From Globodera rostochiensis (lineage: Eukaryota; Nematoda; Chromadorea; Rhabditida; Heteroderidae), in assembly GCA_018350325.1 (NCBI GenBank), contig JAEVLN010000030.1:620001-684000 (forward strand): 64,000 nt of DNA. The letters are read 5' to 3'. Under the pieces are notes generated by a model that was not told the DNA's origin, ran no database searches, and saw only the letters and a list, made by a program, of their open reading frames with translations. Made by a program: the position numbers and the translations under genes. Shown here piece by piece: positions 5,243 through 22,650 of this stretch (positions are counted from its first letter, which is position 1; each line of letters opens with the position of its first letter).

Positions 5243-5248
5243 CATATA
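5243..5248. repeat. Target site duplication, left (CATATA)
   Basis: CATATA directly abuts the first base of the left terminal inverted repeat and is repeated exactly at 22645-22650 after the right end. A 6-bp duplication is the known signature of Maverick/Polinton integrase. Confidence 0.93.
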
Positions 5249-6428: not shown

Positions 6429-6449
6429 CCGAATGTGAGGGGCCATCTC

Positions 6450-6470: not shown

Positions 6471-6492
6471 AATAATTAATTTAAAAAAAAAA

Positions 6493-7113
6493 ATGAAAAT
6501 GTTTAGTGGACCTTTCACACTAATTCTTTCAGGGGCTACCGGAAGCGGTAAAACCCAATGGCTTTTGAAATTTTTGAAATATTATAGGGAATTAATTGAT
6601 CCAGTGCCAAATAAAGTTTTATATTGTTATGGTGAAATGAATGACAGTATTTTGGGGTTAATCGGGCAGGGTATAGAGACGCACAACGGAATTCCAGATT
6701 TGAAATTGATAAAAGAACAAGCGAAACCGTTGTTACTTATTCTCGACGATTTAATGCTTAACGTAAAAAATAATTTTCTTGATTTGTTATTCACGAGGGG
6801 ATCTCATAATTGGAACGTTAGTATAATTTTTGTTACCCAAAGCCTATATGGTAGGGATATAAAAACTGCACGAGCAAATGCTCATTATCTTGTCTTGATG
6901 CGAAACCCATCAGGACAGCTTCAGGTAAGAACCGTAGGCTCACAGCTGTTCCCCAAAAGACTGAATTACTTTATGGAAACATATAACAACGCAACCAGTA
7001 ACCAATTTAGCTATCTGGTAATTAATATGCATCCAAACGCGGATGAAGAATTTAGATTATCGAGCAAAATATTTCCAGGTGAAATTTTAGAAGTATATTT
7101 GCCAAATGAATAA
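6493..7113 (+). CDS. A32-like DNA packaging ATPase (FtsK/HerA superfamily)
   Basis: This 206-aa protein has a Walker A motif GATGSGKT at residues 14-21, a hydrophobic Walker B ending in two aspartates (LLILDD, 81-86), and a sensor strand followed by TQ (about 113-116). This is the compact layout of Maverick, adintovirus and poxvirus A32-type ATPases, which pump DNA into preformed capsids. Length is normal for Mavericks and no motif is missing. It is the first gene inside the left repeat; a TATA-like motif separates it from the next ORF. The ATG at 6493 is preceded by a run of A and the Walker A motif follows closely, so little could be missing upstream. Confidence 0.93.
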   Translation: MKMFSGPFTLILSGATGSGKTQWLLKFLKYYRELIDPVPNKVLYCYGEMNDSILGLIGQGIETHNGIPDLKLIKEQAKPLLLILDDLMLNVKNNFLDLLFTRGSHNWNVSIIFVTQSLYGRDIKTARANAHYLVLMRNPSGQLQVRTVGSQLFPKRLNYFMETYNNATSNQFSYLVINMHPNADEEFRLSSKIFPGEILEVYLPNE

Positions 7114-7118
7114 AAATC

Positions 7119-7126
7119 TATAAAAG
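7119..7126 (+). promoter_or_regulatory. TATA box ahead of the 147-aa ORF
   Basis: TATAAAAG begins 28 bp before the ATG at 7147, in the 33-bp gap after the ATPase stop. The spacing is short for a polymerase II promoter, so a chance match in AT-rich DNA or a very short leader must be considered. Confidence 0.45.
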
Positions 7127-7146
7127 GAAATTAAATATCAAAAAAT

Positions 7147-7590
7147 ATGAAAATGTACCATTTTAGCTCTCAAGTAAAGGAGAATACAGCATTTTTAAAA
7201 AAACTTGCCTCCACCAGATCCGATCAAAAGAAGAATAATTTAATCGAAACGGCAACTACTGATCAAATTTTGGCAATTGTTGAAATTTGTGCAAACATTT
7301 TGAGCTTTACATTTAAACTTAATAAAAGACAAAAACAAAGGCTTGTTCAGTACGCAGATTTTTATCGAGCCATTGCTAAATCAAAATCTGAAAAGGCAGC
7401 AAGAAAAAAGCTACAACAGGGCAGCGGAATAGCACTAGGAGCAGTTTTAATTCCAGTTTTAAGTGTTCTGGCGCAACATTTACTAGAAAAATTACGTCAT
7501 GAAATTTGCAAAGAAAATGTTAATGGTTCCCGAAACGGAATATTATGCACTGTTAAGTGCCATCCAGGGCGGAGATTATCTGCAAAATGA
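7147..7590 (+). CDS. Small basic protein with C-terminal hydrophobic segment, adintovirus-type
   Basis: 147 aa. The layout is that of a small protein recurrent in Mavericks and adintoviruses: a Lys-rich N-terminus, a TDQILAIVEICANI-like helix (residues 38-51), a KLNKRQKQRL basic stretch (about 57-66), then a Gly/Ala/Leu-rich hydrophobic segment (about 92-112). In related elements such ORFs sit beside capsid genes and are thought to be virion core or membrane-active components; exact function is unknown. Its last 92 bases overlap the next ORF in another frame, a compact viral arrangement. The residues after 118 lie wholly inside that overlap. Confidence 0.65.
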   Translation: MKMYHFSSQVKENTAFLKKLASTRSDQKKNNLIETATTDQILAIVEICANILSFTFKLNKRQKQRLVQYADFYRAIAKSKSEKAARKKLQQGSGIALGAVLIPVLSVLAQHLLEKLRHEICKENVNGSRNGILCTVKCHPGRRLSAK

Positions 7591-7969
7591 AAAATCAATG
7601 CTAGATGCAAAAATCAGGCAGAATTTAGACGATCCGACAATAAATGAAGATGTTAAAGCTAGCAAGCATAACTGGCTTTATAAGGAAAGACGGATGCTAA
7701 AAGAAATGACAGAAAATCGACCGCAAAAGGTGATTATTGAAAATCAGGCTCCAACACCAAATATTGCACCGTATTTGGGGGTTAGCCATGCGAAAACGCA
7801 GATGACTGAAGAGCCAAGAAAGGTCATTATTCCCAGAATAAGACTCAAAAGCATGCCGGAACCTTCTGAGCCGCAGCCCCAAAAGCGTGATGACGAACCC
7901 CAACTACCGCTTTCTACTTTATCTTCTCCAATTTTTAAAACGCCTGAAAAATTGCAAGCAACAGCGTGA
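7499..7969 (+). CDS. Conserved Maverick/adintovirus ORF with an N-terminal KMLMVP motif
   Basis: 156 aa. The start (MKFAKKMLMVPETEYYALL, residues 1-19) resembles the short ORF that regularly follows the hydrophobic one in adintovirus-like elements. A charged helical segment to about residue 75 and a Pro-rich, probably disordered C-terminus follow. The start is inside the previous gene (92-bp overlap). At its stop a GTGAGT donor-like sequence occurs, and another frame carrying 7990-8205 opens. In relatives this protein has a further globular C-terminal part, so the two ORFs may be pieces of one protein. Function unknown; a virion role is inferred from context. Confidence 0.6.
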   Translation: MKFAKKMLMVPETEYYALLSAIQGGDYLQNEKSMLDAKIRQNLDDPTINEDVKASKHNWLYKERRMLKEMTENRPQKVIIENQAPTPNIAPYLGVSHAKTQMTEEPRKVIIPRIRLKSMPEPSEPQPQKRDDEPQLPLSTLSSPIFKTPEKLQATA

Positions 7970-7989
7970 GTAATTATAAGGATGTTTTG

Positions 7990-8205
7990 ATGTATCTTGT
8001 CGGTGGGAAAAAAGAAACGCCAAAGGGAGTAAAATTTCTAAAGGATCGACTCTTAAAAGACCAGACAATACGAGAAATGGTTGGCAAGTCAAGCGACATG
8101 TGGGGGGAGGGTAAAAAAGTTGTTGTCAAGATAAAACCTATAAAAACAATCGGCATCATTCGAGAAAAGAAGCTTTTTAAACCAACAATATGGGCAAGGC
8201 TATAG
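7990..8205 (+). CDS. Small basic ORF between core ORFs and integrase
   Basis: 71 aa from the ATG at 7990. The frame opens at a GTG at 7966 that overlaps the previous stop, which would add eight residues. It is Lys-rich (about 25%), with a PKGVKFLKDRLLKD helix (residues 11-24) followed by a WGEGKK turn. The helix vaguely resembles the C-terminal domain of the preceding protein in related elements, which would make this a detached exon or frame of that gene. I saw no canonical -1 slippery site in the overlap. It overlaps the integrase start by 16 bp. I do not recognise a function. Confidence 0.45.
   Translation: MYLVGGKKETPKGVKFLKDRLLKDQTIREMVGKSSDMWGEGKKVVVKIKPIKTIGIIREKKLFKPTIWARL
8139..8146 (+). 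promoter_or_regulatory. TATA box ahead of the integrase
   Basis: TATAAAAA lies 51 bp before the integrase ATG, inside the preceding small ORF. It is a candidate core promoter, weak on its own. Confidence 0.4.
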
Positions 8206-9266
8206 ATAAAATTTTATCAAAAGTTTATTACGATCTCAAATCTCCGGCGAGTTTTGCGGGAATAAATAAAATTTTAGACGAAGCAAGGAAGGTAAATCCA
8301 AAAATTAAAATGGAGCACGTTAGCAATTTTCTCGAAAAACAAAAAACTTACACTCTCCATAAACCTATTAGAAAAAGATTTCCAAAACTAAAAACAATAC
8401 CTAGTGGGTTTCATACCGATTGGCAATGCGACCTTTGTATTTTTGACCAATTAAAACAATATAACAACGGGTATAAATATTTATTAGTCTGCATTGAGGT
8501 TCTGAGCCGAATGCTTTTTGTTGCCCCTGTAAAGTCAAAAAGAAGTGAGGATATGATAGATGCTTTTGAAAAAGTCTTCAAAAAATCAAATATACTCCCA
8601 AATAAGCTGTATAGCGACAGCGGGCTTGAATTTCAGGCAAATAAAATGAAAAGATATTTTGAGGATAAAGATGTAATAAAGCGGGCAATGCATAGCCCAC
8701 ACCTCCATGCAGGCGTAGTGGAAAGGGCTAATCGAACAATAAAAGAGCGTCTCTATAGATACTTTAGTAAAAATAACACACTTAGGTGGGTCGATGTTAT
8801 AGATGAAATTGTTAAAAACCTAAATAATAGTGTTCATCGAACAACGGGGATGAAACCAACTTCCGTAAAATTTGAAAATGCCAGAGCACTATGGGAGAAG
8901 TTATATAAGGAAAATGTGGTACCAGTGTCTAAGAAGAAATTTAAAAGAGGTGACATCGTTCGCATCACGAAAGAAAAAGGAACATTTACAAAAGGTTATT
9001 ATCCGAATTTTACCGAGGAATTGTTCAAAATTTCCATTGTTAATCCAACAAGTCCGGTCTCTTATCGCATTGTAGATTTTGATGATAATTTAATCAAGGG
9101 TATTTTTTATAATCAGGAACTTGTAAAATCAAACGAAGATATTTTTAAAATTGCAGAGGTCCTAAAAACGCGCGTCAGGAAAGGGATTAAAGAGCATTTT
9201 GTAAGGTGGGAAGGATATTCAGAAAAATTCAATAGTTGGATAAAAGATTCAGATCTAGTAAAATAA
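8190..9266 (+). CDS. Maverick integrase (retroviral-type DDE) with C-terminal chromodomain
   Basis: 358 aa. A helical N-terminal part with His residues leads into the catalytic core: D81 (WQCDL), D143 (YSDSGLEF) and E179 (VVERANR), spaced D-D(35)E exactly as in retroviral and Maverick integrases. After an SH3-like basic segment (about 245-310), a chromodomain occupies about 318-356 with the VRWEGY and SWI aromatic-cage landmarks. The enzyme joins the element ends to host DNA, giving the 6-bp duplication seen here; the chromodomain probably steers it to methylated histone tails. The stop overlaps the next ATG as TAATG, suggesting coupled expression. All catalytic residues are present. Confidence 0.96.
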   Translation: MGKAIDKILSKVYYDLKSPASFAGINKILDEARKVNPKIKMEHVSNFLEKQKTYTLHKPIRKRFPKLKTIPSGFHTDWQCDLCIFDQLKQYNNGYKYLLVCIEVLSRMLFVAPVKSKRSEDMIDAFEKVFKKSNILPNKLYSDSGLEFQANKMKRYFEDKDVIKRAMHSPHLHAGVVERANRTIKERLYRYFSKNNTLRWVDVIDEIVKNLNNSVHRTTGMKPTSVKFENARALWEKLYKENVVPVSKKKFKRGDIVRITKEKGTFTKGYYPNFTEELFKISIVNPTSPVSYRIVDFDDNLIKGIFYNQELVKSNEDIFKIAEVLKTRVRKGIKEHFVRWEGYSEKFNSWIKDSDLVK

Positions 9267-10720
9267 TGGATGATTTTTATATTGTATTACCATCAAATAC
9301 ACCCTTTTCAGGAAACAAAACTTCAAAGTTTACTGTAAGACTACCAGAAACACTAGAATTAGACACAAGCTGGGCAGTTGCCCTTTCTTCGATAATTTAT
9401 CCCTATTCGTTTACAGCTCTCGGAATAGAAGGAAGAGAATTTATTAACGTCTTTGAAAAAGGAAAGACTGAAGGTTTAAAAATATACCTGCCAGATATGA
9501 ACTTTAAAACTGCAAGAGGGCTGGCAAAGAAAATTAACGAAGCATTTTCTCATTATTATGATTTGGAAAAACGACAAGGGAGAAGAAAAAGAGAGGCAAA
9601 ATCAAAGGAAGAGAGCACAGATAAGCAAATAGACTCTGCTAAAAGAGCATCCGGTCGAGCTTGGAAAGAGACTCAAGGATATGTTCAAAAAGCTAACAAT
9701 ATAATAACGCAAACAAGGCGTCTAATAGCAGAATCAAAAGAATTGAGTTCAAACTCACTAGAAGCTCCGGGTGTGAAGGAGTTGTTTGAAAAACTAGCAC
9801 AAAAGAGTACCAACTTTGAATCATTGTTTGAAGAAATTAACACGCTTTCTAAAGAAGTCGAAGGTGCTCAAAATAGTACTCTAGAATGTGTAGCTAAACA
9901 AGATCTTAAGGGGGCGAAAAAATTTGCAGACAAAGCAAAAGCTGCTGCAAGACATGTTAAGACCAAACAAATCGAAATAGCTAGAGAGCATGAAAATACT
10001 ACTGAGGAGGGATTTGCCGGACTTGTAACAAGAATAAATAAGACCATTGGAGTTTTCTTACAGCCTCAATCAGAAAATCTTAATAAAGATGCGCCGCAAC
10101 ACGCCGAAATTGAACCAGTCGAAGCACAGAGAGAAGAATCGGAACAAATAACAGGTGCACAGGAAGAAGAGGATCCTAAGGAGAAAATGTCAGAAGAAAC
10201 GCAAAAAGAGGAAAAATTTTATGAAGAAACCCAACCAAAAATTGCCGTCGTAGAAGATGTTGGTAATGATATATCTCCGCCTAGGCATATAGAATTTAAA
10301 TATGACACTGTTGATCAAAAATTTATTGCCCATCTAGATACTGCAATATCACATATTGAGTTGTCCGAACATTTAGCATATGTATTAGGCTTTAAAAATC
10401 GGGTGTTGCATCATGGTGATGAGGCTCCTTATATGCCAGATTTAACAGGTGGAGTAAGACAGATATATATTTATGCACCAAATCTGGTGGAAAACACTAT
10501 AATAGGCAACCGATTGGCACCACTTTTGCGAATCATTAATGTTGTTGGAGATCCGGGATCAATAAACGAGGTTATATATAGCACGGAATATTTTCATCGT
10601 TTACAATCAAAACGAATTACGGAAATTTCTGTAGAAATTTATACACCTTTTGGAGAATTAGTGAAATTTCATTGGGGAACGTGTATTCTCACCTTACATT
10701 TTAAGAAAACTATATTTTAA
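9266..10720 (+). CDS. Penton-like minor capsid protein with a long helical insertion
   Basis: 484 aa. The N-terminus (DFYIVLPSNT, residues 3-12, then a FTVRLPE strand and a WAVAL..I.YP motif) and the C-terminal segment from about residue 335 (RQIYIYAPNLVE, then PLLRIINVVGD) match the single-jelly-roll penton/minor capsid protein of Mavericks and adintoviruses. Between them, about residues 100-330 is highly charged and helical (Lys/Glu/Ala-rich, heptad-like), an apparent coiled-coil insertion I do not expect in the family. Role: five-fold vertices of the capsid. The ATG at 9266 shares a base with the integrase stop; upstream codons in this frame lack ATG. Confidence 0.85.
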   Translation: MDDFYIVLPSNTPFSGNKTSKFTVRLPETLELDTSWAVALSSIIYPYSFTALGIEGREFINVFEKGKTEGLKIYLPDMNFKTARGLAKKINEAFSHYYDLEKRQGRRKREAKSKEESTDKQIDSAKRASGRAWKETQGYVQKANNIITQTRRLIAESKELSSNSLEAPGVKELFEKLAQKSTNFESLFEEINTLSKEVEGAQNSTLECVAKQDLKGAKKFADKAKAAARHVKTKQIEIAREHENTTEEGFAGLVTRINKTIGVFLQPQSENLNKDAPQHAEIEPVEAQREESEQITGAQEEEDPKEKMSEETQKEEKFYEETQPKIAVVEDVGNDISPPRHIEFKYDTVDQKFIAHLDTAISHIELSEHLAYVLGFKNRVLHHGDEAPYMPDLTGGVRQIYIYAPNLVENTIIGNRLAPLLRIINVVGDPGSINEVIYSTEYFHRLQSKRITEISVEIYTPFGELVKFHWGTCILTLHFKKTIF

Positions 10721-10721
10721 A

Positions 10722-11081
10722 ATGACACATGTATTCTTTGATCCCCAGTCGGTGGATTGGTCATCATTTTTGGAAGCTCAAGTAGGAAGAGGCCAAAAAC
10801 AATATTTTGTTGGAAGCAAATATCAGCGAGGATTTGGATTCCTCGACAATGTTGTTCGTTTCTTAACACCAATAGCTAAAAATATTGCAACAGCTGCTGG
10901 TAACGAAGGAATTGCCGCAGGTCAACGGGTTTTAGGTGATATGGCCCACGGTAAAGTTTTAAAGGATGCCCTTAGGGAACATTCGAAACAGGGGCTTGAA
11001 AATCTCTCGAATAAATTCCAGCAATGTGGAAAAGGAAAGCGAACTAGGAAACAGGTTATTGATCAATTAACTTTCGTTTAA
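10722..11081 (+). CDS. pVI/pX-like minor virion protein
   Basis: 119 aa. It has a Gly/Phe-rich N-terminal half with YQRGFGFLDN (residues 34-43), followed by an amphipathic helical segment and a Lys/Arg-rich tail containing GKGKRTRKQ. This matches the small protein found between penton and hexon genes in adintoviruses and Mavericks, likened to adenovirus pVI/pX (membrane lysis or core condensation). It starts one base after the penton stop and precedes the major capsid gene, the usual order. I saw no clear GxG-type protease site, so processing by the element's protease remains open. Confidence 0.75.
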   Translation: MTHVFFDPQSVDWSSFLEAQVGRGQKQYFVGSKYQRGFGFLDNVVRFLTPIAKNIATAAGNEGIAAGQRVLGDMAHGKVLKDALREHSKQGLENLSNKFQQCGKGKRTRKQVIDQLTFV

Positions 11082-11087
11082 AAAAGG

Positions 11088-11096
11088 TATAAATAG
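11088..11096 (+). promoter_or_regulatory. TATA box ahead of the major capsid gene
   Basis: TATAAATAG starts 36 bp upstream of the capsid ATG and lies in a 42-bp gap between ORFs, so it is not constrained by coding. It is one of the better promoter candidates in the element. Confidence 0.6.
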
Positions 11097-11123
11097 AATT
11101 GCGTAGTTAATAATTAAAAGCTT

Positions 11124-12476
11124 ATGGCGACTTTAAAGAAAATTGACAAAACAAGTGAAGATGGTCTCGAAGGAGGCCTGGCACTATTCGATATTCCTCC
11201 TACCAATGTTGCGATAAACAAATCCAGTGTTCGGGAATTACTACCACTATCGGCTATAAATCAATCGGGCCCATATATTTTTAGATTATTTTCGGACAGC
11301 CAGTTTTGCGATCTTAATAAAACCTTTTTATTCCTATCAACATCAATAGAAAGAAAACAAAAGAATAATTGGATACCAATTACAAGCGCTAGCGACGCTG
11401 ACAAGCATGCCGGAGTTATTCAAAACTTTGGCCAAAGCTTTATAAAAACTTTAAAAATCAGTGTTTCCGGTGTGGAAATATATGATTCTGGCGTATATTA
11501 TGCATACCGGTCATATATGATGAACGAACTAGGATTTTCAGATGTTGTAAAGAGGGGGCTATATGAAGCAAATTGTTACTATGTTGATGAAACTGATCAG
11601 AATAATTATGAAAATGAAGGATTTAAAAACAGGGCATCTCGATTTGCAAACGGCGTTAATTGTGAAACTATGGTGAAACTAAATTTCGATTTGGGGCGTC
11701 AGCCCAATTTACTATTAAATAATTCCGATGTAATATTTAGCATATATCGTAATAGTGATGAATTTTTAATTTTGGCTCCGCCTTACAAACTAGAAAAAGA
11801 GATGCTGCCAAATCCTCATGAATTTCGGATTAGAGTAAATGACATTCGAATTTATGTGAAGACCGTTGATGTTGCTCAATCATTAAATAATGCTATCAGT
11901 AACCATTTGGAGATTACCCCGGCAAAATATCCAATGAGAAAAATAGAGATTAGAAGTCTTTTCCTGCCCGAAGGTACCTCCGATCTATCGCACAATGTTT
12001 TTACAAGCGTCATCCCTAGAAGGTTAATTATTGGGTTTGTTTCCACTGATGCATATACTGGTAATAAGGCTCTTTCGCCCTTTAAATTTGAACATGCAAA
12101 TATTCGATCGATTACTATTGAGGCAAATGGGTATACATTTCCCGGAGCACCATATTCATTTAATTTCAAAAATGGAAAATATGTGAGGGCTTTTGTTGAT
12201 ATGTACACCGGTCTAGGCATGGATGATGGCGACAGAACAATGTCAATAAATATGTCTAAATTTTTAGGTGGCTGGTGCTTCTTTGTAATACCAATGACTT
12301 CTACCCTTGATGACACTCCAGGATTTGAGCTTATACGAAATGGAACCACTAGTGTCAAGGCTCAATTTACTGAACCTATAAAAGCGGGGGGCTATGAGAT
12401 GATTGTTTTGGGAGAATTTGATTCAATATTATCGATCAATGCAAATCGCGTTATTTGTAGTGACGGAAGCATTTAA
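11124..12476 (+). CDS. Major capsid protein (hexon-like, double jelly roll)
   Basis: 450 aa, the usual length for Maverick capsid proteins. Landmarks include LALFDIPPTNVAI (residues 19-31), LPLSAINQSGPYIF (40-53), a NFGQSFIKTLKISVSGV strand pair and a YAYRSYM motif (about 126-132), all typical of the first jelly roll. The second half carries RRLIIGFV and NGYTFPG-type strands. Trimers would form the capsid shell. The ATG is preceded by a TATA box, and the stop overlaps the protease ATG (TAATG). Codon use is like its neighbours and no disruption is seen. Confidence 0.93.
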   Translation: MATLKKIDKTSEDGLEGGLALFDIPPTNVAINKSSVRELLPLSAINQSGPYIFRLFSDSQFCDLNKTFLFLSTSIERKQKNNWIPITSASDADKHAGVIQNFGQSFIKTLKISVSGVEIYDSGVYYAYRSYMMNELGFSDVVKRGLYEANCYYVDETDQNNYENEGFKNRASRFANGVNCETMVKLNFDLGRQPNLLLNNSDVIFSIYRNSDEFLILAPPYKLEKEMLPNPHEFRIRVNDIRIYVKTVDVAQSLNNAISNHLEITPAKYPMRKIEIRSLFLPEGTSDLSHNVFTSVIPRRLIIGFVSTDAYTGNKALSPFKFEHANIRSITIEANGYTFPGAPYSFNFKNGKYVRAFVDMYTGLGMDDGDRTMSINMSKFLGGWCFFVIPMTSTLDDTPGFELIRNGTTSVKAQFTEPIKAGGYEMIVLGEFDSILSINANRVICSDGSI

Positions 12477-12931
12477 TGAATTCTAACCAGGTAGACAGTA
12501 TCTTGTCAAACATTAAAGCAACTGAAAAAAATTTTATTGGTGTTTTTGCCTCCAATAATATTCCAAAAGTCCATAGAGGGAGAAAATATCCATATTGTTT
12601 TGTGGCTAATACGGGCAAAGCTGGCACAATTGGCGAGCATTGGGTGGCCTGTTTTGTTAGCTCGAATACTCAAATAGAGTATTTTGATTCGTTGGGTGAA
12701 CACCCAAATGAAGATTTGGGTGCATACCTTAACCAATTTGACAAAATTTTGTTTAATGAGCGTATTATTCAGCACCCGTTTTCAGATTCATGCGGTCATT
12801 TTTGTATTTATTTTTTGGCTGTTCGCTGTTCAGGAGTTCCATACTGCAAAGTCATGGATAACTTATATAAGACTCGCTCAATAGCTGATTTGTTAGTTAA
12901 AAAATTTGTTAGATCATTATGTTATCGTTAG
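12476..12931 (+). CDS. Adenain-like cysteine protease (Ulp1/C5 type)
   Basis: 151 aa. The catalytic set is visible: H55 in GEHWVACFV, D71 in IEYFDSLG, Q99 (oxyanion glutamine) and C106 in SDSCGHFC. This is the fold shared by adenovirus protease and SUMO proteases, in Mavericks responsible for cleaving capsid and core proteins during maturation. Length is close to the minimal catalytic domain. It overlaps the capsid stop by one base and the next gene by 13 bp. A TATAAAAG at 12377-12384, inside the capsid gene, could serve it but is 99 bp away. Confidence 0.95.
   Translation: MNSNQVDSILSNIKATEKNFIGVFASNNIPKVHRGRKYPYCFVANTGKAGTIGEHWVACFVSSNTQIEYFDSLGEHPNEDLGAYLNQFDKILFNERIIQHPFSDSCGHFCIYFLAVRCSGVPYCKVMDNLYKTRSIADLLVKKFVRSLCYR
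12864..12871 (+). promoter_or_regulatory. TATA box ahead of the membrane protein gene
   Basis: TATATAAG lies 55 bp before the ATG at 12919, inside the end of the protease gene. The same octamer precedes the PAZ gene, and its complement precedes the polymerase. Confidence 0.5.
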
Positions 12932-13854
12932 TAATTTTGGTTACAATATTTGTTCCAAGTGTCAGTGAAGAAATTAATGTGGAAATTTCCACGGATAGAC
13001 CGAACTTTTTTGACAATAAATATATTACAATTTCAAAACCCTCAACACTTGATAGATTGTTTGGCTTCGACCAAAATAGTTTGTGTATGATAAGCAGAGA
13101 CCTTAGGCTGGGATGGACTATTTCAATTCAGAAGATAAATTCTATTGAAAGAATTGGACCAACAAAGATCGATTTATATCAGGATTTTAGAGTTATGAAA
13201 CCCATGGCATGTTTTTACTTTAATGAACACACTTACCTTATTTTTAAAAATGTTAACACAAATGAAACATCTGTCATACGCGGTCATTATGAAAAAGTTT
13301 TGAAAAATTTTCCAACCGGTGACTTACGGTTTGATCACATCAGCAAAAGGCTCTTCATAATAAGATATGACAAAATCGATGAAATCAACATGAGCTCGTT
13401 TGAGAACTGGTGGCTTCACGATAGCCAGAAAGAGTTTGAAAAATTACATTTAGACCCGATTGGTGCAATACCTTCCGAGTACACCGATTTCCTAATAGTC
13501 GACAATCAGATTTATTTGATCAACAATAGAAAAGTTTATCGACATGCTCTAGGATCTAACGATATACTTCCAAAATTAATTTCACCTTCAAATTCCGACA
13601 AGTTCAACATTATGATATTTAAAGAGCTCAAACCGATAAACCTATCTAGTTCAAATGATTGGGTATATTTTTTATATGCTTTTGACGTGTTAATGTTTTT
13701 GCTTTGTATTTTTATTATTAAAAAATTGAAGCTAAGGAAAAAGAAGAATGATTCTTTAAACACCTCCGTGTTTTATTCATCAGATGATGAAAGAGTATAT
13801 AAGGAAGTGATTGAGACAATACGACCGCCTCAAAATGTGCACCAGTCTCATTGA
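12919..13854 (+). CDS. Type I membrane protein, candidate envelope or surface protein
   Basis: 311 aa. Visible parts are: an N-terminal signal peptide (about 1-16, cleavage after SVS), an ectodomain of about 230 residues with two cysteines (C56, C98) and N-glycosylation sites at N115, N157 and N241, a transmembrane helix (about 248-266), a KKLKLRKKK stop-transfer stretch, and a 40-residue acidic tail. Repeated strand-loop units (for example FYFNEHTYLIF, 99-109; DFLIVDNQIYLI, 190-201) look like beta-propeller blades. Nematode Mavericks are known to carry envelope fusogens at such positions, but this protein is shorter and I cannot place it in a fusogen family. Its start overlaps the protease and its end overlaps the PAZ gene. 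Confidence 0.7.
   Translation: MLSLVILVTIFVPSVSEEINVEISTDRPNFFDNKYITISKPSTLDRLFGFDQNSLCMISRDLRLGWTISIQKINSIERIGPTKIDLYQDFRVMKPMACFYFNEHTYLIFKNVNTNETSVIRGHYEKVLKNFPTGDLRFDHISKRLFIIRYDKIDEINMSSFENWWLHDSQKEFEKLHLDPIGAIPSEYTDFLIVDNQIYLINNRKVYRHALGSNDILPKLISPSNSDKFNIMIFKELKPINLSSSNDWVYFLYAFDVLMFLLCIFIIKKLKLRKKKNDSLNTSVFYSSDDERVYKEVIETIRPPQNVHQSH
13796..13803 (+). promoter_or_regulatory. TATA box ahead of the PAZ gene
   Basis: TATATAAG starts 39 bp upstream of the PAZ ATG, the same distance as between the TBP gene's own TATA box and its ATG. It is inside the tail-coding part of the membrane protein gene. Confidence 0.5.
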
Positions 13855-14188
13855 AATTTTATGCGAATTTAACAGGTGCGAGCCCCATGAGCTTGCACAA
13901 TTTTTAAAGAGAAGAAGAGTTGAAAATCTCAATTTTCTAAGAAATAACCCGCTGGTCACAACACATCTTAGGCATAACCAATTTATTTCACCGGACGGCA
14001 TCACTTTTAATGGTGCAAATAGGTTATTTGCATACAGGGGATTCCTTGGAGTAACAGTTGAGCAGCATTTGTACTCCAAACATCGAGTCAAATTAGACTA
14101 CCCGCAATTGCCTTGCATAGTGATGTATCAAAATAGTGGTCACCGAAATTATTTTCCCCTGGAACTTTTACAAAAATATTGCGGCTAA
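13835..14188 (+). CDS. Stand-alone PAZ-domain protein (Argonaute-type small-RNA 3'-end binder)
   Basis: 117 aa, essentially one domain. In order it shows an N-terminal helix (SLIEILCEF, 4-12), an Arg-rich loop, VTTH (41-44), DGIT (54-57), the PAZ core VTVEQHLYSKH (73-83), KLDYPQLPC (86-94) and NYFPLELL (105-112). These match Argonaute PAZ domains in order and spacing: the -V-QYF- helix, the L-YP-LPC strand and the YLP-EL ending. PAZ holds the 3' end of small RNAs. There is no N, MID or PIWI domain. One classic helix tyrosine is replaced by His (H78); the following Lys-His (82-83) is kept. Inferred role: sequestering host small RNAs. The ORF overlaps the membrane gene by 20 bp. The frame is open from 13811, but the first ATG is at 13835. 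Confidence 0.8.
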   Translation: MCTSLIEILCEFNRCEPHELAQFLKRRRVENLNFLRNNPLVTTHLRHNQFISPDGITFNGANRLFAYRGFLGVTVEQHLYSKHRVKLDYPQLPCIVMYQNSGHRNYFPLELLQKYCG

Positions 14189-14269
14189 CAGGTGCGGGCT
14201 TTCACTTTATCGTTCACACATCCTGATAGTCCCAATAATAATATTATTTTTAGTATTTATTTATTCATC

Positions 14270-14680
14270 GAAAAACAAAATAATCAAATCCAAAGCAAAA
14301 CATTAAAATCTCGTCGAATTATCCCCTTTGCACAGATCGGGGACGCAGTACATCTGTGCTTTCTGAGTCCCATGTCTAAACCTTTGCAACTCCCGCGTTT
14401 TTAAAAATGTTTTTTTACAATTTAAAAATTCAAAAAAAACTTACTCCAAATCGTTCTTGTATCCAAAGAGGCGGTCCATCTCCCGCCGTAGCTCAGCCTC
14501 CATTCTGGAACGCCTCAAATGCAGTTGTTTTGATTTTGTCCACATCCATGTATCCTCATCCTCGAATTTCATCACGTAGTCCAATCCCCCTCTTATAATT
14601 GTCCCATTCAGGCCGAATTGTGTTTTGTTAACTCTGGCAAAAATAAAAATTTTAAATCCCCGGGGGGGGGAAAAATTCCC
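14270..14680 (-). pseudogene. Decayed duplicate of the polymerase 3' end
   Basis: This segment aligns with 15597-15985, covering the last polymerase exon, the last intron and the start of the preceding exon, but carries many substitutions and indels that break the frame. The intron boundary and the phrase encoding the C-terminal region are still recognisable. It lies downstream of the intact polymerase terminator region on the minus strand. It probably arose by local duplication together with the flanking SINE-like repeats. An N at 14681 and a G run mark its edge. Confidence 0.8.
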
Positions 14681-14681
14681 N

Positions 14682-14900
14682 GTGGCCAAGTGGTTAGTGC
14701 TCTCCTCTCTCTCTCGCAGCTGCAGCGGGGGTTCGGATCCCCTCAGCAGCGGATGAATTTTTCGGATTAAAAATATTTTGGCAGAGTCAAAAAAGTCGCG
14801 CAGCTTCGCAAGTGAAATTTAAAGATTTAAATTTCGAAAAAAGTCGCGCAGGGTGCGCGAGTACCTTGCGCAGTGAAAAAAAATAAATAAAAATTAAAAT
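14682..14900 (+). repeat. tRNA-derived SINE-like element, copy 1
   Basis: It begins GTGGCCAAGTGGTTAG. A polymerase III A box (TGGCCAAGTGG, 14683-14693) and B box (GGTTCGGATCC, 14730-14740) are 36 bp apart, separated by a CT-rich tract. The body holds repeated TCGCGCAG words and ends in an A/T-rich tail. The head resembles a degenerate serine/leucine-class tRNA but does not fold as a full tRNA by eye. A second copy at 15088 is nearly identical over about 210 bp. Confidence 0.75.
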
Positions 14901-15087
14901 AATCAAAATATTAAATATTAAATAAACTCGCGCAGCAAGCAGCTGCCTGCAGCGCCCCTTACTCGCGCAGGGGTGGCTGCAGACCCCCTCACTCAATACT
15001 GCAGTGGAGACTATTTGTTTATTCCCTTTGGCTGACGTCATTCTCCCCCATATAAGGGCAATAGTGGCCATTGCTCCCAATACACCA

Positions 15088-15320
15088 GTGGCCAAGTGGT
15101 TAGTGCTCTCCTCTCTCTCTCTCGCAGCGGCAGCGGGGGTTCGGCTCCCCGCAGCGGCGGATGAATTTTTCGGATTAAAAATATTTTGGCAGAGTCAAAA
15201 AAAAGTCGCGCAGCTTCGCAAGTGAAATTTAAAGATTTAAATTTCGAAAAAAGTCGCGCAGGGTGCGCGAGTACCTCGCGCAGTGAAAAAAAATAAATAA
15301 AAATTAAAATATTAAATAAA
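15088..15320 (+). repeat. tRNA-derived SINE-like element, copy 2
   Basis: Same structure as copy 1: A box 15089-15099, B box GGTTCGGCTCC 15138-15148, and a body with TCGCGCAG words. The sequence beyond 15320, up to about 15560, contains more TCGCGCAG units, then GC-rich DNA with no ORF. The two copies flank a 180-bp spacer and, with the polymerase duplicate, fill the gap between PAZ and polymerase. Confidence 0.75.
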
Positions 15321-15591
15321 GTCGCGCAGCAGAAATTTGCATAAAGTCGCGCAGTGCGCAAGATGCTCAAACGTCTTAAGATTTCGAAATTTAAAAAATT
15401 TAAAAAAGTCGCGCAGCAACCCTGCCAATAGGTTTAGGCTCTGGGACTCACTTGGCAAGGCCTCAGTTGGCCGGCGCTCACCTGGCTGGCTGGCGCTCAC
15501 TTGGCGCCCCACCCCCTCCATAGGTATGGGGGGCTACCGTACCCGGGGAAAAAGCAGGTAGTAACTACTTTTAATTTTTTTATATTCATCT

Positions 15592-18500
15592 TTATTCAGC
15601 AAAAAAAAAAAAATAATCAAATCCAAATGGCAAAACATTAAAATCCTCGTCGATAATCCCCTTCTGACAGATCGGCATGTACATCTTGTGTTTCTCCCTC
15701 GTCACGACCTTTGACTCCCGCGTTGGCCTAAAAGATGTTTTATAACAAATTTTAAAAAAAAAATTAAAAAAAACTTACCCAAAATCGTTCTTGTACACAA
15801 AGAAGGCCGGGTCCATCTCCTTTCCGTAGCTCAGCACCATCTTCTTGAACGCCTCATAATGCAGTGTCTTGTGATTATCCACATCAAATGTTATCCCTCG
15901 AATCTTCATCACGTAGTCCACATCCCCCGTCTTTTTGCTTCTCATCTTCAGGCCATACTGCTTCGCCCCGCCACAACAAAATTCTTCAATTTCGTAACCG
16001 CCATACTCCTCGCTCATCTGCCCGAGATACTTCCCCGTCGTAATCGGCTCCACATCTCTATCGTGCATAACAAATATACTGTCAGTATCCGTGTACAATA
16101 TTTCTCCCCCATTCCGTTCCGCCTCCTGCATATATTCCAACAATTTCAGCCGTGCCATACTCGTCGTCCACAAACTTATGATGATGTTGCTCGAACTATG
16201 TTCCGTGACGAAATCCTCCTTGTCCTTGTAAACAACACGTATTGCCCCATCCGAATACTCAACAATGTCGTGAATCTCAATCTTGTGGTCGCACACCAAT
16301 CGGTAAAACTCTGTTGCCTGATCAATCACCTTATTCTTGCACAACGAATTCCTCATTGAAAATTTCCCCTAAAAAAAATTTTTATGTAAATTCTGTAATT
16401 TTGCTAATTTTTTTTCTTACCCATAAACTATTCAACATCAGCTTACTGATGTACCGCAGGCCCGCATTCTTCTTCACTCTCTCCAAATCGATCTCAATTC
16501 CATACTTTTCCTTATATTCTTCTGCCCATTTCTTCTTCTGCTCCTCTGTCTCAACTCCTTTCGGAAAACCGCTTGCCTCCTCCTTCAATTTCAAAAACAA
16601 TCTCACATAGCCCTTGAACAAATCGTCGTTGTCCTCCCCATAGTGCCACGCCCTATAAAATCTGTCCACTGTGTACCCGCTTTCCAATGCTTTGGCCTAA
16701 AAATTTGTTATTAACCAAATTATTTTTAAATTTTTTCCTTACCAATTCAACACTTGTATACGTGGCAACATATCTCCTCTGAGCTTCATCATGGGGGCAC
16801 TTGTATTCACATCTCGTATTCTCCTTCTTAAAGCTTGATGCGCACCTCCAACACAGCGGAAACAATAATCTATCATCACACTTCAACTGCAACACCGGTA
16901 TTCTAAGCCCCTTCGGCGGGTTGACCCTCACTTTGTACAGCCCCTTGTACTTCAAATCATCCGGCTTTGTCCAGCTCACGTCAATTTCATCTCGCGTCGG
17001 TATAATAATGTCGGGCAGTCGTGTCGGATATGCTGTTTCGTAGTTCACTGCCGGGTACAAGCTCACAATATCGTAGATTGAAATCTTCTTCTTCTCATCG
17101 GCCTTTGCAAATAACTTCATTGGGCCCGTCCTCCCTCCCGCATATGCCATCCTCGGGTCAATTGGCCCCTTCTCGTTCCCTCTGTCCTCGAAAAATTCTT
17201 TCATCTCGGCATCCTTTTTCAACTCTTGCTCAATTTCGCAAGTCCAGACTTCCTCAACATCCAGCGTTTCCCGCAGCTCAGCCAACCGCTCCTGCGTTTC
17301 ATCATACAAATCTTGCGCTGCTCGTCCTCCAATCAATTGCGCCGTCGGGTCATAACATTTCAAACATCCGTGGATAAAACAGCCCATCACTTCAATACAT
17401 TTGCCTCTGCCGCTCACATTCTCAATATATCCGTCCAATTTGTATTTCCCGACTTGTTCCTCTCGCCCATTGCCCGCATGCTTAATGTCCACATTGTCTC
17501 GTTTACTCCTCCACTCCAAATATTTGATGGCGATTACGCTGGCCCTGTCACAGCGCTCATATCCCCTCTCCGGCACAATCGATAACTCCTCCTCTTGCAA
17601 AAACATGGCCTTGAAAATACTCATTGCAACACCAGCATTCGTACAGCTCCTCGGCAGCGGATCAAACCCTCCCGTAATGTCCTCGACCAAGATCCTCCGG
17701 AATTCAACTATCGACTTCAGCAAAATCTCCGTATCGTTTCGGCAATAATTCTTCAGCTCTTCGGGCAAATAAAACGGCGTCTCCTTGTTCTCGTTGTACC
17801 ATTTCTCAAATTTGTCGAATTTTTCCTTCTTCATCGATCCTGGCGAATAGTCTTCCATGGGCGGTAAGTGGGGCAGATGTGTTTTGTAATTCTCCTTCTT
17901 GTTGTAATAATACGGGAAAAACGGCTTCTCCTCGCAGTCCAGATTAAATGTCCCCTTCATCGCTTCAAGTTTTACCGGCATAAGCAAGCATGAGTCCCTC
18001 CATATCAGCATTGAGTGTTTCTTCGAGTTTTGCACCGTAAATTCGTAAATCTTCAGCCCATTAATCAGCGGCATCGGGCTCTTCCCGGCTCGGCAGAGGT
18101 AGTTAAACACGAAATGCCCATCAAATCTCCCGGCGTTGTGTGCGAATAGGTAGGTCTTGTACTTCTTATCAAATGCGGCTAAAATCCACTCCAAAAATTC
18201 CTTGGTCGGCTCCTGTCCCTCCGCTTCACTCCAGTCCTTTTCTCGCTCAATTCCACAAATCCGACAGTCTTTCCTGTTTCCGTCGTCACAACACTCGGTA
18301 CACGTCACTCTCGCCGAGATATAATTAATCACATGTTCCTTTTGGTCTCCTTTATAAGTCTTGTCCTGTGACGTCTCCGAATCCTAAAAATTTACATATT
18401 TTTCTGAAATCGGGATTACTATTGACTTACCCAAACAACAATCCTGTAGATATCCTTTTCCTCTTTGACCACGATCGGTTTGATGTAACAGCCTCGCTTC

Positions 18501-19881
18501 GGGTCATGGCAAATTCCACATGATCGGCAGAAAATCTCCCCACATTCGTGTTTACTCTTCGGGTTAAATTGATAGGTCTTATTGCACTCCACACACCGCT
18601 TCCATATGTTGCAAGTTTGATGTCCTTGGTGGTAATTGTAGCATTGTTGGTTGTAAAAGAATCGACGGCATTTGGGACATTCAATTTTCACTCCTCTTTC
18701 CTTGGTGCATGGCATTCCACCCACCCGGTTGCAGTAATAACATCTGGCCTTGCACTCATAAGTATGATAAACGGCTTGGTCGTAAAAACATTCACAGTCA
18801 ATACAGAAATTTCTCCCTCTGTTGAAAAAGCAGACAAAATTCTTCAGACCGTCCCAATGATTGTTCTCCAAAAAAATCGGCACAACAGCTTCACGCCCCA
18901 TCGGCCCCTTCCAAAGCACGCGAATTGATCTCCTCGGGTCTGCACATTTTTCAAAGGCCACAATTCGGTATTTTCCCGGAATATTTTGGTCCTAAATAAA
19001 AAAATAAATTCCTGAAATATTATTTTATTAGTATTACCCAATATTTCTGAATTGCCGACAAATGCTCAACTCCGTAACCATTTTCCATATTGTTAACTCC
19101 GGATTTGTGTAATAATTCAAATGCCGCCTCCCTTTGTCGCACCATGTTTTTCATAAACCGATTAAACGCAAATCTGTCAACCTCCAAATAATTCTTCGCC
19201 GCTGCCAGCGCATAAAATAAACACAATTTGTCGTTATTGTTGATCCTAAAATAATAATTTGTACAATTATTCCTGTAGCGGTTCTAGAACCCACTCTTGG
19301 GTTCTAGAACCAAAATTTATTTATTTGTACGAATTTGTGAACATTTCTTGGCCCTTCTCCAGCTGGCAGCGCGACACACGTAACATTCATCTGCATCGGA
19401 CGAGAAAGTAAAACCGTCCTCATGTCGTCTCCGCTTTCTCCTCCGCTTTGCCCCAACTTGTTGATTTCCTCCATTACGACATCCGCGTTGTTTTGTGGGT
19501 ATGGGCGATACGGCAAATAGACTGGGTATCCAAGTCCCGTCCCCGTCAGTGACACTCCAAACATTTTCACCTTTCGCCCCATTGTCTCTTCAGTCCGCTT
19601 GAAGGCCTTGTTAATCATGTCCTCAATTGCATCTCTCATTCGTTCATCCGGGTGCGGCGTATCAGGGTTGATGGTAAATTCGGTAATGTTTTTCATAAAC
19701 CCAAACTTTTTGCAAGTCTCCGTGCGATGATCGTTCAATTTGTACATCTCGTCCGAAAAATTGTTTCTAAATAAAAAAGTTCTATTTATCGAATTTTTAT
19801 TTATAATTCTTACCCAATTGTTCGGAAGTCCCATTTTTTAGCCGCCGGTCCGCCGGATTGGTTCACACGTTTTGAAGTCAT
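15592..19881 (-). CDS. polB: Protein-primed DNA polymerase B (pPolB), eight exons
   Basis: Exons on the minus strand are 19881-19814, 19766-19311, 19245-19038, 18991-18431, 18383-16743, 16696-16421, 16368-15779 and 15727-15592. The total is 3936 nt, 1311 aa, in phase throughout. Introns are 46-65 bp with GT-AG ends; only the second donor (GTTCTA) is non-consensus and uncertain. The N-terminal third is followed by a Cys-rich zinc-binding region (exon 4), the 3'-5' exonuclease (FAHNAGRFDGHF; YCRNDTE), and palm motifs A (DIVSLYP), B (NSLWGKFS) and C (YTDTDSIFV). The last exon supplies the conserved C-terminus. The enzyme replicates the linear element, primed by a terminal protein. Splicing in an otherwise intronless element implies nuclear expression. 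An A-run at 15601-15613 encodes consecutive Phe and may slip. Confidence 0.93.
19280..19311. promoter_or_regulatory. Two GGTTCTAGAACC palindromes in polymerase intron 2
   Basis: Perfect 12-bp palindromes at 19280-19291 and 19300-19311 are separated by 8 bp. The TTCTAGAA core is the classic inverted heat-shock element (nTTCnnGAAn). The second palindrome spans the predicted intron donor, which may explain its odd sequence. Whether it is an enhancer or a small inserted hairpin cannot be told from sequence alone. Confidence 0.5.
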
Positions 19882-19977
19882 TTTAATAAATAATAAAAAA
19901 CTTTTAATAAAAATGCGCAAATGATAATTTTAAAAATTTTGCTCAGTTAAGAGTGAATACGGAGGCAAGATCCGTGC

Positions 19978-19985
19978 CTTATATA
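19978..19985 (-). promoter_or_regulatory. TATA box of the polymerase gene
   Basis: The minus strand reads TATATAAG, followed by G, in an otherwise non-coding stretch 97 bp upstream of the polymerase ATG at 19881. This spacing would leave a 5' leader of about 65-70 nt. Confidence 0.6.
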
Positions 19986-20034
19986 GTGGGAAAATGGGGC
20001 GTAATCATTGCGAAATACCTGTCACGTGATTAAT

Positions 20035-20515
20035 CTGTCATGTGACAGATTACGAAATAACTGTCTGGCGCGACAGATTTCGTAATGATTGTCTGCCAAA
20101 TTGCAAAATGTTGAAGGTCATCAATCATTTTTGATTGACAGGTGACAGATTTTGAAATATTGCGTGCCATTTTTGCAAAATATTAAAGGTAATCAATCAT
20201 TTTTGATTGACAGGTGACAGATTGCGAAATAACTTTGATTTTGATTGACACGTGATAGTTTCAAAATTATTCAAGGTCATCAATAATCAAAAATTTTTTT
20301 TTTGAGTCATCAATCATTTTGATTGACAGGTGACAGATTTTGAAATAATTTTGCGAGTCATCAATCATTTTTGATTGCCAGCTGACAAATTTTAAAATAA
20401 TTTGTGAGTCAAAGCTTTTTGATTGACAGGTGACAGATTGCACAATAATTTACGAGTCATTAATCTCGTAAAATGATTTGTGAGTCATCAGTCTGTCATG
20501 TGATCATAGTGTGAC
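20035..20515 (+). promoter_or_regulatory. Repeat array with TGATTGACAG motifs between polymerase and TBP genes
   Basis: Imperfect units of roughly 40-80 bp follow the pattern GAGTCATCAATCATTTTTGATTGACAGGTGACAGATT, with AAATAATT-like spacers. TGATTGACAG occurs exactly at 20132, 20204, 20320 and 20420, with one-base variants at 20242 and 20372. The same decamer is in both inverted repeats (6352 and 6398 as the complement; 21192, 21236 and 21282). TGATTGACAG is the known composite site for PBX-MEIS/PREP homeodomain pairs. The array lies between divergent promoters, so it is a candidate shared enhancer; a replication role is an alternative. Confidence 0.6.
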
Positions 20516-20565
20516 CTTGACCGTATTTTATGTCCATAATAATGCGTCCTTGAAATATTTTTGCC

Positions 20566-20574
20566 TATATAAAG
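20566..20574 (+). promoter_or_regulatory. TATA box of the TBP gene
   Basis: TATATAAAG lies 39 bp before the TBP ATG in non-coding DNA. A TATA box directly ahead of a TBP gene raises the possibility of autoregulation. Confidence 0.6.
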
Positions 20575-20604
20575 GACTAAAATCGATTGATTATTTGGTT
20601 CAAA

Positions 20605-21144
20605 ATGCAAAAACCTATCATTGTCAATATCGTTGCTGTCGCCAATTTGGGAGTTGAAATTGACCTCTCTTCATTATCGATTAATGATTGCAAATTTAAG
20701 TATAACCCCCAAAAATTTAAAGCTGCAATTTTGAAATCTGAAAATCCTATAAAATCCACTGCTTTGTTATGGGAGTCGGGAAAAATAATTTGTTTAGGCA
20801 CCAAAAATTTGGAAGATTGCGAAAAAGCGATAAGAAAATTTATTGAAATTATTAAATTCTCGGGATGTCCCAGTGTTTTTTACACTGGACATTTAATTGA
20901 AAATGTTGTTACCTCATTTAATTTTGGGCGGGAAATTGATCTAAATGAATTCCGAAAAATTCGTCCCAAAAATAGTTTTTATGAGCCTGAAATTTTTTGT
21001 GGTCTAAACTACAAAAGAGGAAAAAGATTGACTGCCTTAATTTTTTGGACGGGCAAAGTGGTAATAACGGGTGGAAAAAATATTGAAGAAATTCATGAAA
21101 TGTACTATCACATTATGCCTTATTTAAAAATGTCACAAAAGTGA
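20605..21144 (+). CDS. TATA-box-binding protein (TBP) homolog carried by the Maverick
   Basis: 179 aa, intronless, corresponding to the TBP core with no N-terminal extension. Repeat 1 (about 6-88) has VNIVAVANLG (7-16), YNPQKF (33-38) and a TALLWESGK stirrup with ICLG. Repeat 2 (about 97-175) has IENVVTSF, SFYEPEIFCGLNY (124-136), TALIFWTGK (143-151) and VVITGGK, closing with IMPYLK. The four residues equivalent to the DNA-kinking phenylalanines are F38, W56 (a Phe-to-Trp change), F131 and F147. Host TBP nucleates transcription at TATA promoters; this copy could recruit the transcription machinery to element genes. It lies just inside the right inverted repeat and runs forward. The ORF opens at a TTG upstream; the ATG at 20605 is chosen because the saddle begins at once. 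Confidence 0.92.
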   Translation: MQKPIIVNIVAVANLGVEIDLSSLSINDCKFKYNPQKFKAAILKSENPIKSTALLWESGKIICLGTKNLEDCEKAIRKFIEIIKFSGCPSVFYTGHLIENVVTSFNFGREIDLNEFRKIRPKNSFYEPEIFCGLNYKRGKRLTALIFWTGKVVITGGKNIEEIHEMYYHIMPYLKMSQK

Positions 21145-21170
21145 AATCGATTTATAAATCTTTTTGTTGC

Positions 21171-22644
21171 AAAATTTGAGCGGCGGAAGTTTGATTGACA
21201 GGTCAGTCTGGAATTTTTGGTGCGCGGAGAAAGTTTGATTGACAGGTGAGAAGGGAAAAATTTTGGTGTGCGGAGAAAGTTTGATTGACAGGTGCCGTAA
21301 TGACCTTGAGGGATGGGGGAGGAAAAAGTTGAATTATGGATTAGGCGCCAATACCCTTTTTACATTGAGAGCACATAGTATCGTTCACTGGTCCTTAAAA
21401 AAATATTTGTGAAGTAATTTTGTACAGAAAAATCTCCTCTTTCAAATGGTATATCGTTTGTAAAAAACAGATCAAAATTCACAGACTAGATAGGTTTTGT
21501 AGACCTCTTATCGATAGTACGGGTAACAAAAGAGAATTGCCTAATCATCATTAACAATCGCTGTCATCCTCATCATAGTCGTTTTGTCATATTATTGTCA
21601 TCTTTTGTCGGTTCATGCGTATGTTATATTTTGTCATACAGTTTGTCATAAATGTTCACCTTTTATCATGCCTTAGTCGTCCTTTGTCATCTATTTGTCA
21701 TGCATAGTCATACTGTTTGTCATACTTTGTAATAATATGTCATACAATAGTCATAATTTTGTCATACCCGAGTCATACTATGGCAACTCATCCTTCGACC
21801 TTCTTTATATGCCATTAATTAGTTTCCTTCACAACCCTCTGGCTCCTTTGGGTTGCGTGTTAATCCGCTAACCCCGCGCGGTTTTGTTTTGACCGCAAGC
21901 CGCTCGCTTTTGTGGTTTGTTAGGAGACGGGATGTTCAAAGGACCCAATAGGTTTGGGTCTGGTGGCGGCATGATCAAAGAACCCGAACCCTCCAATAGC
22001 TTTAGACCTTGCGGGCGGCATGATGATAGAACCCAATAGGTTTTGGCTTGGGGCGGTAAGATCAAAGTACCCATAGCTTTCGGTTTGGGGCGGCAAGATC
22101 AAAGGATCTGACCCCTCCAATAGGTTTAGGCCTTGCGGGCGGCATGATCAAAGCCCCAATGGGTTTAAGTTGAGTGGCGGCATGATCAAAGGGTTTCTCC
22201 AATAGGTTTGGGTTTGGTGGTGGTAAGGTCAACGGGTTGGACCCCTCCCATAGGTTTAGGTTTGGTGGCGGCATGATCAAAGGGCAGACCCCCTCCAATA
22301 GCTTTAGACCTTGCGGGCGGCATGATGAATGAACCCAATAGGTTTTGGCTTGGGGCGGTAAGATCAAAGTACCCAATAGGTTTCGGTTTGGGGCGGCAAG
22401 ATCAAAGGATCTGACCCCTCCAATAGGTTTAGGCCTTGCGGGCGGCATGATCAAAGCCCCAATAGGTTTTGGCTTAGGGCGGCAAGATCAAAGGATCTGA
22501 CCCCTCCAATAGGTTTGGGTACCCGCGCCCTTTTTGGCCGCGCCGTACCCGCGCGGTTTTGGTACCCGCTCGGTTTTGGTACCCGCTCGGTTTTGGTACC
22601 CGCTCGGTTTTGGTACCCGCTCGGTTTTGACGCTATATGCTGCT
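21171..22644 (-). repeat. Right terminal inverted repeat of the Maverick
   Basis: About 1.47 kb, inverted copy of 5249-6428. Relative to the left copy it has one extra inner unit (three TGATTGACAG instead of two), two extra 17-bp terminal units (five instead of three, about 22540-22630), and about 200 bp more of the TGATCATGCCGCC-type units. Apparent ORFs here (for example 22062-22454 on the minus strand, rich in MPPPNLNL) are translations of these repeats, not genes. Confidence 0.95.
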
Positions 22645-22650
22645 CATATA
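22645..22650. repeat. Target site duplication, right (CATATA)
   Basis: It directly follows the last base of the right inverted repeat and is identical to 5243-5248. Confidence 0.93.

Follow-up and report, generated by a model that had tools for sequence, protein, structure and literature searches.

A Maverick element of Globodera rostochiensis encodes a protein with the sequence and predicted fold of a TATA-binding protein

Mavericks (or Polintons) stand near the origin of several groups of eukaryotic DNA viruses and presumably depend on the host for their transcription. To our knowledge, the TATA-binding protein (TBP) is not among the standard Maverick genes. Here, we describe a Maverick with a TBP gene in a stretch of 64,000 nucleotides from the nematode Globodera rostochiensis (assembly GCA_018350325.1, contig JAEVLN010000030.1, positions 620,001 to 684,000 of the forward strand), which we will term the window. 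The gene, TBP-A (20605..21144, + strand), encodes 179 amino acids with both lobes of a TBP and has no intron. Some large double-stranded DNA viruses (such as Heterosigma akashiwo virus, and African swine fever virus with B263R) likewise have TBP-like proteins with a TBP fold of their own (PMC7221094 and PMC5825884). According to the available text of PMC7221094, a TFIIB-like protein accompanies the TBP-like sequence in nearly all of these viruses (none was found in poxviruses). The same text states that viral TBPs have diverged at the positions that contact TFIIB, where conservation at the first position is about 40%, and in the basic cluster of the N lobe.

TBP-A is a TBP by sequence and by predicted fold. 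As the original prediction had it, the open reading frame (ORF) is a single frame of 179 codons without an intron, with an ATG at 20605 and a stop codon that ends at 21144 in the ORF list of the window. The prediction would have fallen if a profile search had not found TBP, but the Pfam TBP family matches in two stretches that correspond to both lobes (1.8e-42, 143.5 bits against a cut-off of 22.9), and the human TBP core in the PDB matches over residues 4-176 (1.2e-29). The predicted structure is a saddle fold. The intercalating positions F193, F210, F284, and F301 (in the numbering of PDB 1cdw, which we use throughout) correspond to F38, W56, F131, and F147, the same four residues that had been proposed. 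Three of the four intercalating Phe and both minor-groove Asn are kept, and the fourth Phe is replaced by Trp, which is still aromatic. The YEPEIF and LIFxxGK motifs, which had been read as hallmarks, are both in the translation, and the pair of Glu that contacts TFIIB (C.L3.2 and C.L3.4) is present as E127 and E129 (E280 and E282 of 1cdw). TBP-A resembles human TBP (PDB 1cdw and 7egb) in its two lobes, saddle fold, Asn pair, three Phe, and Glu pair. It differs from human TBP (37-39% identity) by the Trp at F210, by changes in its TFIIA strand and helix H2 that include charge reversals, by having no N-terminal extension, and by being encoded in a Maverick.

The viral TBP-like proteins are only 8-25% identical to TBP-A of the window (the best two are at 25 and 23%), in agreement with the earlier claim that they are diverged. 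In contrast to the viral TBP-TFIIB systems, TBP-A keeps the Glu pair and there is no TFIIB match near the Mavericks. Across the whole genome, the TFIIB family has three matches (at C8 and C34), none of them near the mapped Maverick integrase, capsid, or DNA polymerase B (PolB) matches, and there was no TFIIB match among 15 ORFs of the element that were scanned with Pfam. TBPs of large DNA viruses are already known, but they are much more diverged and usually come with their own TFIIB; what appears to be new is a eukaryotic-like TBP that is encoded by a Maverick without a TFIIB nearby. We found no paper describing a TBP in a Polinton or Maverick in partial literature listings, which do not establish its absence from print, and no mention of TATA or TBP in the available part of PMC11071308. 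The IMG/VR viral contigs contained no relatives of TBP-A of the window or of proteins P0024, P0069, and P0070. In PHROGs, TBP-A had only two matches near 0.05 and three other proteins of the element had none.

Long terminal inverted repeats, a 6-base target-site duplication, and AG ends are the defining traits of Mavericks. The element in the window (5249..22644, 17.4 kb, with AG...CT ends and boundaries placed by eye) has these traits along with an rve integrase and a PolB. The duplicated target site is CATATA (5243..5248 and 22645..22650, by eye). The left repeat (5249..6418) is tandem-repeated in its outer part; the right repeat (21225..22644) was delimited by inverted-repeat pairing, with its outer end placed by eye. 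The arms pair in register (6240-6418 with 21225-21403, then 5335-6245 with 21397-22307), and the two longest inverted-arm pairs are 100% and 99% complementary. Overall, the element is like nematode and other Mavericks in its terminal inverted repeats, 6-base duplication, integrase, PolB, ATPase, and protease-like ORF. The TBP gene is within the ends of the element, as predicted, but it is not inside the right inverted repeat, where it had been placed. Instead, it sits between the arms, between PolB and the right repeat and 80 bases short of the in-register right arm. (A pairing of 43 bases in a shifted register, 6386-6428 with 21171-21213, begins 26 bases past the TBP ORF.)

The association of TBP with Maverick genes recurs across the genome. 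We searched for TBP-A, integrase, capsid, PolB, and a second TBP lineage, TBP-B, that is described below; these searches scored the best candidates only, so the counts are lower bounds. There are at least 94 matches to the TBP-A protein of the window in the 92.6 Mb assembly, including nine full-length open copies at seven loci (94-100% identical). The remaining matches are mostly fragments or bear stops, and two are TBP-B genes. Integrase, putative capsid, and PolB are found in one layout at C24 (the window), C1:3.282-3.294 Mb, and C26:253-265 kb. The TBP-A locus at C3:1.066-1.076 Mb has no capsid match and the locus at C49 has a PolB match only. At all five of the full-copy loci with a PolB match, TBP is within 2.5 kb of PolB and on the opposite strand, as in the window. 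At C31 and C14:1.266-1.272 Mb, where the copies are two-armed, no match to integrase, capsid, or PolB lies between the arms, which is no proof of absence because only the best candidates were scored. Partial TBPs have Maverick genes as neighbors at three sites: PolB, capsid, and a broken integrase at C45:4.11-4.12 Mb, PolB at C56, and a fragment of capsid at C12.

Long inverted arms, each with an outward-facing copy of TBP or of its 3' part, are present at C31:393-401 kb, C14:1.266-1.272 Mb (99.9% identity between the arms over 3.5 kb), C16:988-994 kb, C33:219-227 kb, C59:53-59 kb, C28:65-71 kb, and other sites. Similar inverted pairs of integrase matches are found at C67, C2, C22, C56, C42, and C44. 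These stretches may be deletion derivatives, with duplicated ends, of a linear replicon that is replicated by protein priming.

TBP-A is a gene of a Maverick family, and purifying selection has acted on it. Between the copy in the window and the other copies, the synonymous divergence (dS) is 0.13-0.20 and the ratio of nonsynonymous to synonymous divergence (dN/dS) is 0.04-0.17. The highest pairwise dN/dS, 0.52, is for the C31-C14 pairs, which are three bases apart. The seven different copies (the identical second arms at C31 and C14 were counted once) vary at 36 synonymous and 19 nonsynonymous bases. If the same changes were placed at random, we would expect 39.7 ± 3.2 nonsynonymous changes, and none of 2,000 draws had as few as 19. 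Three independent pairs, chosen by hand, gave 29 synonymous and 10 nonsynonymous differences (pN/pS of 0.087). The original prediction would have failed for a single dead copy with dN/dS near 1, whereas there are many copies with dN/dS far below 1. The sequence, the predicted structure, the repeated co-location with Maverick genes, and the purifying selection all support its central claim of a Maverick with a TBP of its own.

For the contact surfaces, we compared 6 TBP-A rows, 27 TBP-B rows, and 15 other rows with human TBP and the host's TBP (a partial TBP-A-like hit, P0114, was excluded). F193, F284, F301, N163, N253, V255, and T309 are kept in all six TBP-A rows. Of the TFIIB-contacting pair, E280 is kept in five and E282 in all six. 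(C.L3.2 and C.L3.4 contact TFIIB according to the available text of PMC7221094, which numbers them as E284 and E286.) The basic cluster of the N lobe serves TFIIA, Mot1, TAF1, and Brf1/2 (same partial source), and we report on the whole of helix H2 because that text gives no residue numbers for the cluster. In helix H2 of TBP-A, R227 is replaced by Glu in 6/6 rows, R235 is replaced by Glu or Asp in five, and K239 is never basic. The net charge across the 21 columns of H2 is −3 to +1, versus +2 to +5 in 17 presumed eukaryotic TBP rows. TFIIA contacts TBP at A180, N185, E187, and R201. In TBP-A, the last three are each kept in 0/6 rows, with E187 replaced by Lys in five, and A180 is kept in just one. 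The TFIIA contacts and the basic helix H2, which are eukaryote-specific and do not define the family, are largely lost from TBP-A.

The genes of the element often have TATA boxes. A TATA box, TATATAAAG (20566..20574, + strand), lies 39 bases before the start codon of TBP and is present in 9/9 full-length copies. At −60 to −20 from 12 ORF starts of the element, we found TATAWAW in the sense orientation at six and in the antisense orientation at one; the rate at random positions in the element is 3.7% (P = 2e-6, binomial). In a wider region (−120 to −15), the counts were 7 sense and 2 antisense (10% at random positions, P = 5e-5). (Two ORF starts internal to PolB were excluded from the 12; neither has a TATAWAW within 120 bases.) Boxes are common to the copies that were examined for integrase (4/4), putative capsid (4/4), and ATPase (3/3).

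We consider it fairly probable that TBP-A is a working, element-encoded TBP that serves the TATA promoters of the element via the host's TFIIB and RNA polymerase II (Pol II) and that is freed of host regulators. TBP-A would bind the TATA boxes of its own gene and of other genes in the element and would recruit the host's TFIIB and Pol II. Because its regulatory face is changed (Arg to Glu in helix H2 and Glu to Lys in the TFIIA strand), it would rely less on the host's TFIIA, Mot1/BTAF1, NC2, and TAF1 or be under weaker control by them. Transcription of the element would then continue when the host's TBP is scarce or when host promoters are repressed. Given TATATAAAG before its own gene, TBP-A may also be autoregulated. 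Steering Pol II to the element or escaping host control would fit with the TATA boxes, the contact pattern, the lack of a nearby TFIIB, and the intron-like gaps in PolB. PolB (15775..19834, − strand; DNA_pol_B_2 at 16653-18332, 9.9e-30, above the cut-off) is split by three short GT...AG gaps, which start with GTAAG and end with TTTTTAG; ORFs at 15775-16687 and 18419-19834 were taken as further exon-like parts (gaps and parts by eye). These gaps suggest that the element is transcribed by Pol II in the nucleus and spliced.

Several observations weigh against a working TBP that is freed of host regulators. First, F210 is replaced by Trp and T218 by Leu, each in 5/6 rows of TBP-A, so its sequence preference may differ from TATA. 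TBPL1/TRF2/TLF has Trp at N.L5.1, which is the same substitution as W56, and the available text of PMC7221094 takes this change to suggest a different promoter preference. (TBP-A differs from TBPL1/TRF2/TLF in forming a separate clade, and the host's TLF-like gene is at C23.) Second, the regulator face is partly retained, as R231 is still basic in 5/6 rows and K221 is kept in 6/6. Third, we found no TATA box at the start of PolB. Fourth, the copies are so alike (94-98%) that the TATA boxes they share are weak evidence alone, the choice of random positions took no account of the AT-richness of intergenic sequence, and the starts at 9236 and 13811, which are among the 12, are listed TTG starts. 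Finally, a decoy would explain the lost TFIIA face just as well.

The genome also contains further, highly diverged Maverick TBPs, which the original prediction did not mention. TBP-B is a second diverged lineage in another Maverick family (dS of 1.15 and dN of 0.196 for the pair). Of the 27 TBP-B rows, 26 keep A180, 26 keep N185, 24 keep E187 (P0008 has Val at this position), and 26 keep R201, and the charge of H2 is 0 to +6. However, E282 is replaced by Thr, Ser, or Ala in 27/27 and E280 by Asp in 25/27; also, F301 is Tyr in 23/27 and V165 is Thr in 24/27. Neither copy of TBP-B has a TATAWA within 200 bases upstream; the ATPase of this family has a TATA box in both copies. The neighbor of TBP-B is a gene for thymidine kinase (L033:990-1502, − strand, C14 near 1.251 Mb; Pfam TK, 3.9e-39). 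Very diverged TBP-like stretches are also found near other Mavericks (L041:4698-5614 at C17 and L055 at C45:1588.7-1589.9 kb). Both have lost the YEPE motif (by eye), and the stretch at C17 has no single reading frame.

In a tree of 73 hand-picked rows (70 of 182 proteins, human TBP, and the host's TBP and TLF, with short or partial hits excluded), TBP-A forms one clade of 6 rows (support 100/85) and TBP-B forms another of 27 rows (100/99), and the two are not neighbors. Forcing them together was worse by 18.6 log units (P = 0.074), forcing TBP-A with three nematode TBP rows was worse by 39.4 (P = 0.067), and forcing TBP-B with the host's TLF was worse by 3.1 (P = 0.40). In the free tree, TBP-A is not near the host's TLF, whose row is long-branched (1.86) and whose protein was pieced together by eye. 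As none of the three forced groupings is rejected at 0.05 (AU test), two separate captures of TBP by Mavericks are favored, not proven. More tentatively, the Mavericks of nematodes might have captured TBP on two or more occasions and retained opposite halves of its contacts with the host. TBP-A would keep TFIIB and drop most of the TFIIA/Mot1/TAF face, as an initiator that is blind to regulators; TBP-B would keep the TFIIA face and drop the TFIIB pair, as a competitor that would sit on TATA or TFIIA and lower the transcription of host genes. We regard this combination as possible but doubtful.

An alternative for TBP-A, which we think is unlikely, is that it shuts off the host: it would hold the host's TATA boxes or TFIIB without building a regulated complex, which would lower host transcription and free Pol II for the element. 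In its favor, TBP-A keeps most DNA-contact residues and the TFIIB-contact residues and has lost most TFIIA and regulator residues, and at two loci a pair of full TBP copies sits in inverted arms that enclose no match to integrase, capsid, or PolB. Against it, half of the ORF starts of the element that we examined have TATA boxes, and these would be silenced as well by a protein that was a decoy and nothing else; nor does this role call for TATATAAAG ahead of TBP. TBP-B, which has lost the acidic residue at 282 in every row yet keeps the TFIIA residues, suits a decoy better. Another alternative is that a DNA-bending TBP fold acts at terminal or intergenic repeats to open an origin or to package the genome. 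The TBP gene does adjoin the terminal repeat on the right and a dense array of repeats, but this role seems improbable because it gives no reason to keep the TFIIB pair (E280 in 5/6, E282 in 6/6) or to have TATA boxes before genes in the sense (6/12) rather than the antisense (1/12) orientation.

TBP paralogs are common in animals, and TBP-A could be a nematode TBP-related factor that hitch-hikes in Mavericks while serving the host. Grouping it with the nematode TBP rows was not rejected (P = 0.067), although the free tree, which sets it apart from them, is better by a log-likelihood of 39. Also, the host's TBP (C7; several exons with short introns, 85% identical to human TBP over 172 columns) and TLF-like gene (C23) are separate, intron-bearing genes, all five loci with a full copy and a PolB match have the layout of the window, and many further copies are degraded. 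Altogether, we consider a co-opted host factor very improbable. Least credible of all is that TBP-A is a captured cDNA without a function: it is intronless, so RNA-mediated capture is conceivable, but the strong purifying selection and the second diverged lineage in another Maverick family speak against passive cargo, and dN/dS refutes it as stated unless selection acts via an unseen overlapping feature.

The other genes of the element are on the + strand. The packaging-type ATPase (6493..7113; Pox_A32, 8.8e-8, above the cut-off) has TATAAAT at 6450 and 6464. The retroviral-type integrase (8190..9266; rve, 1.3e-9, above the cut-off) has TATAAAA at 8139 and a C-terminal chromodomain match in Pfam that is below the cut-off (7.4e-5). 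It is followed by a 494-amino-acid ORF (9236..10720, with a TTG start as listed). The putative major capsid protein (11124..12476, 450 amino acids, with TATAAAT at 11088) is named by position and size because it had no convincing relative in Pfam, the PDB sequences (best E of 0.77), or PHROGs; there was also none among the IMG/VR viral contigs. Its ORF stands where the double jelly-roll capsid gene of a Maverick would be expected. A putative cysteine protease of the adenovirus or Ulp1 type (12476..12931) has weak Pfam matches (6.2e-4 and 8e-4, below the cut-offs).

An ORF at 13811..14188 (listed TTG start) contains a free-standing PAZ-like domain, the fold by which Argonaute binds small RNA ends (Pfam 1.7e-6, with 28.4 bits just under the cut-off of 28.8; PDB Argonaute 1, 8.5e-4). 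The genome has 24 PAZ matches, of which 11 adjoin Maverick genes; besides the one in the window, these 11 are at C1:3287682, C45:4116865, C44:3672, C3:825241, C80:1496765, C80:1707735, C28:480071, C59:9764, C45:1607043, and C18:677406. A Maverick protein of this kind could suppress RNA interference.

Upstream of TBP is an array of seven related 33-base repeats (20029..20449, + strand), within which there are four exact copies of TGATTGACAG (20132-20429). This sequence, a candidate PBX-MEIS composite site, occurs 10 times in the window (at 6352-6407, 20132-20429, and 21192-21291 among others), versus 0.03 expected. Nine of these belong to the element, where they are found in its terminal repeats and ahead of TBP.

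A eukaryotic-like TBP that is under selection, together with TATA boxes in the element and no TFIIB beside it, would be a minimal natural capture of a general transcription factor by a selfish element. A Maverick TBP makes it testable how selfish elements gain control of Pol II, and two natural TBP variants with opposite losses in their contact surfaces are material for structure-function work. It would also explain gene models of cyst nematodes that are annotated as "TATA-box-binding protein" or "hypothetical" as Maverick genes.
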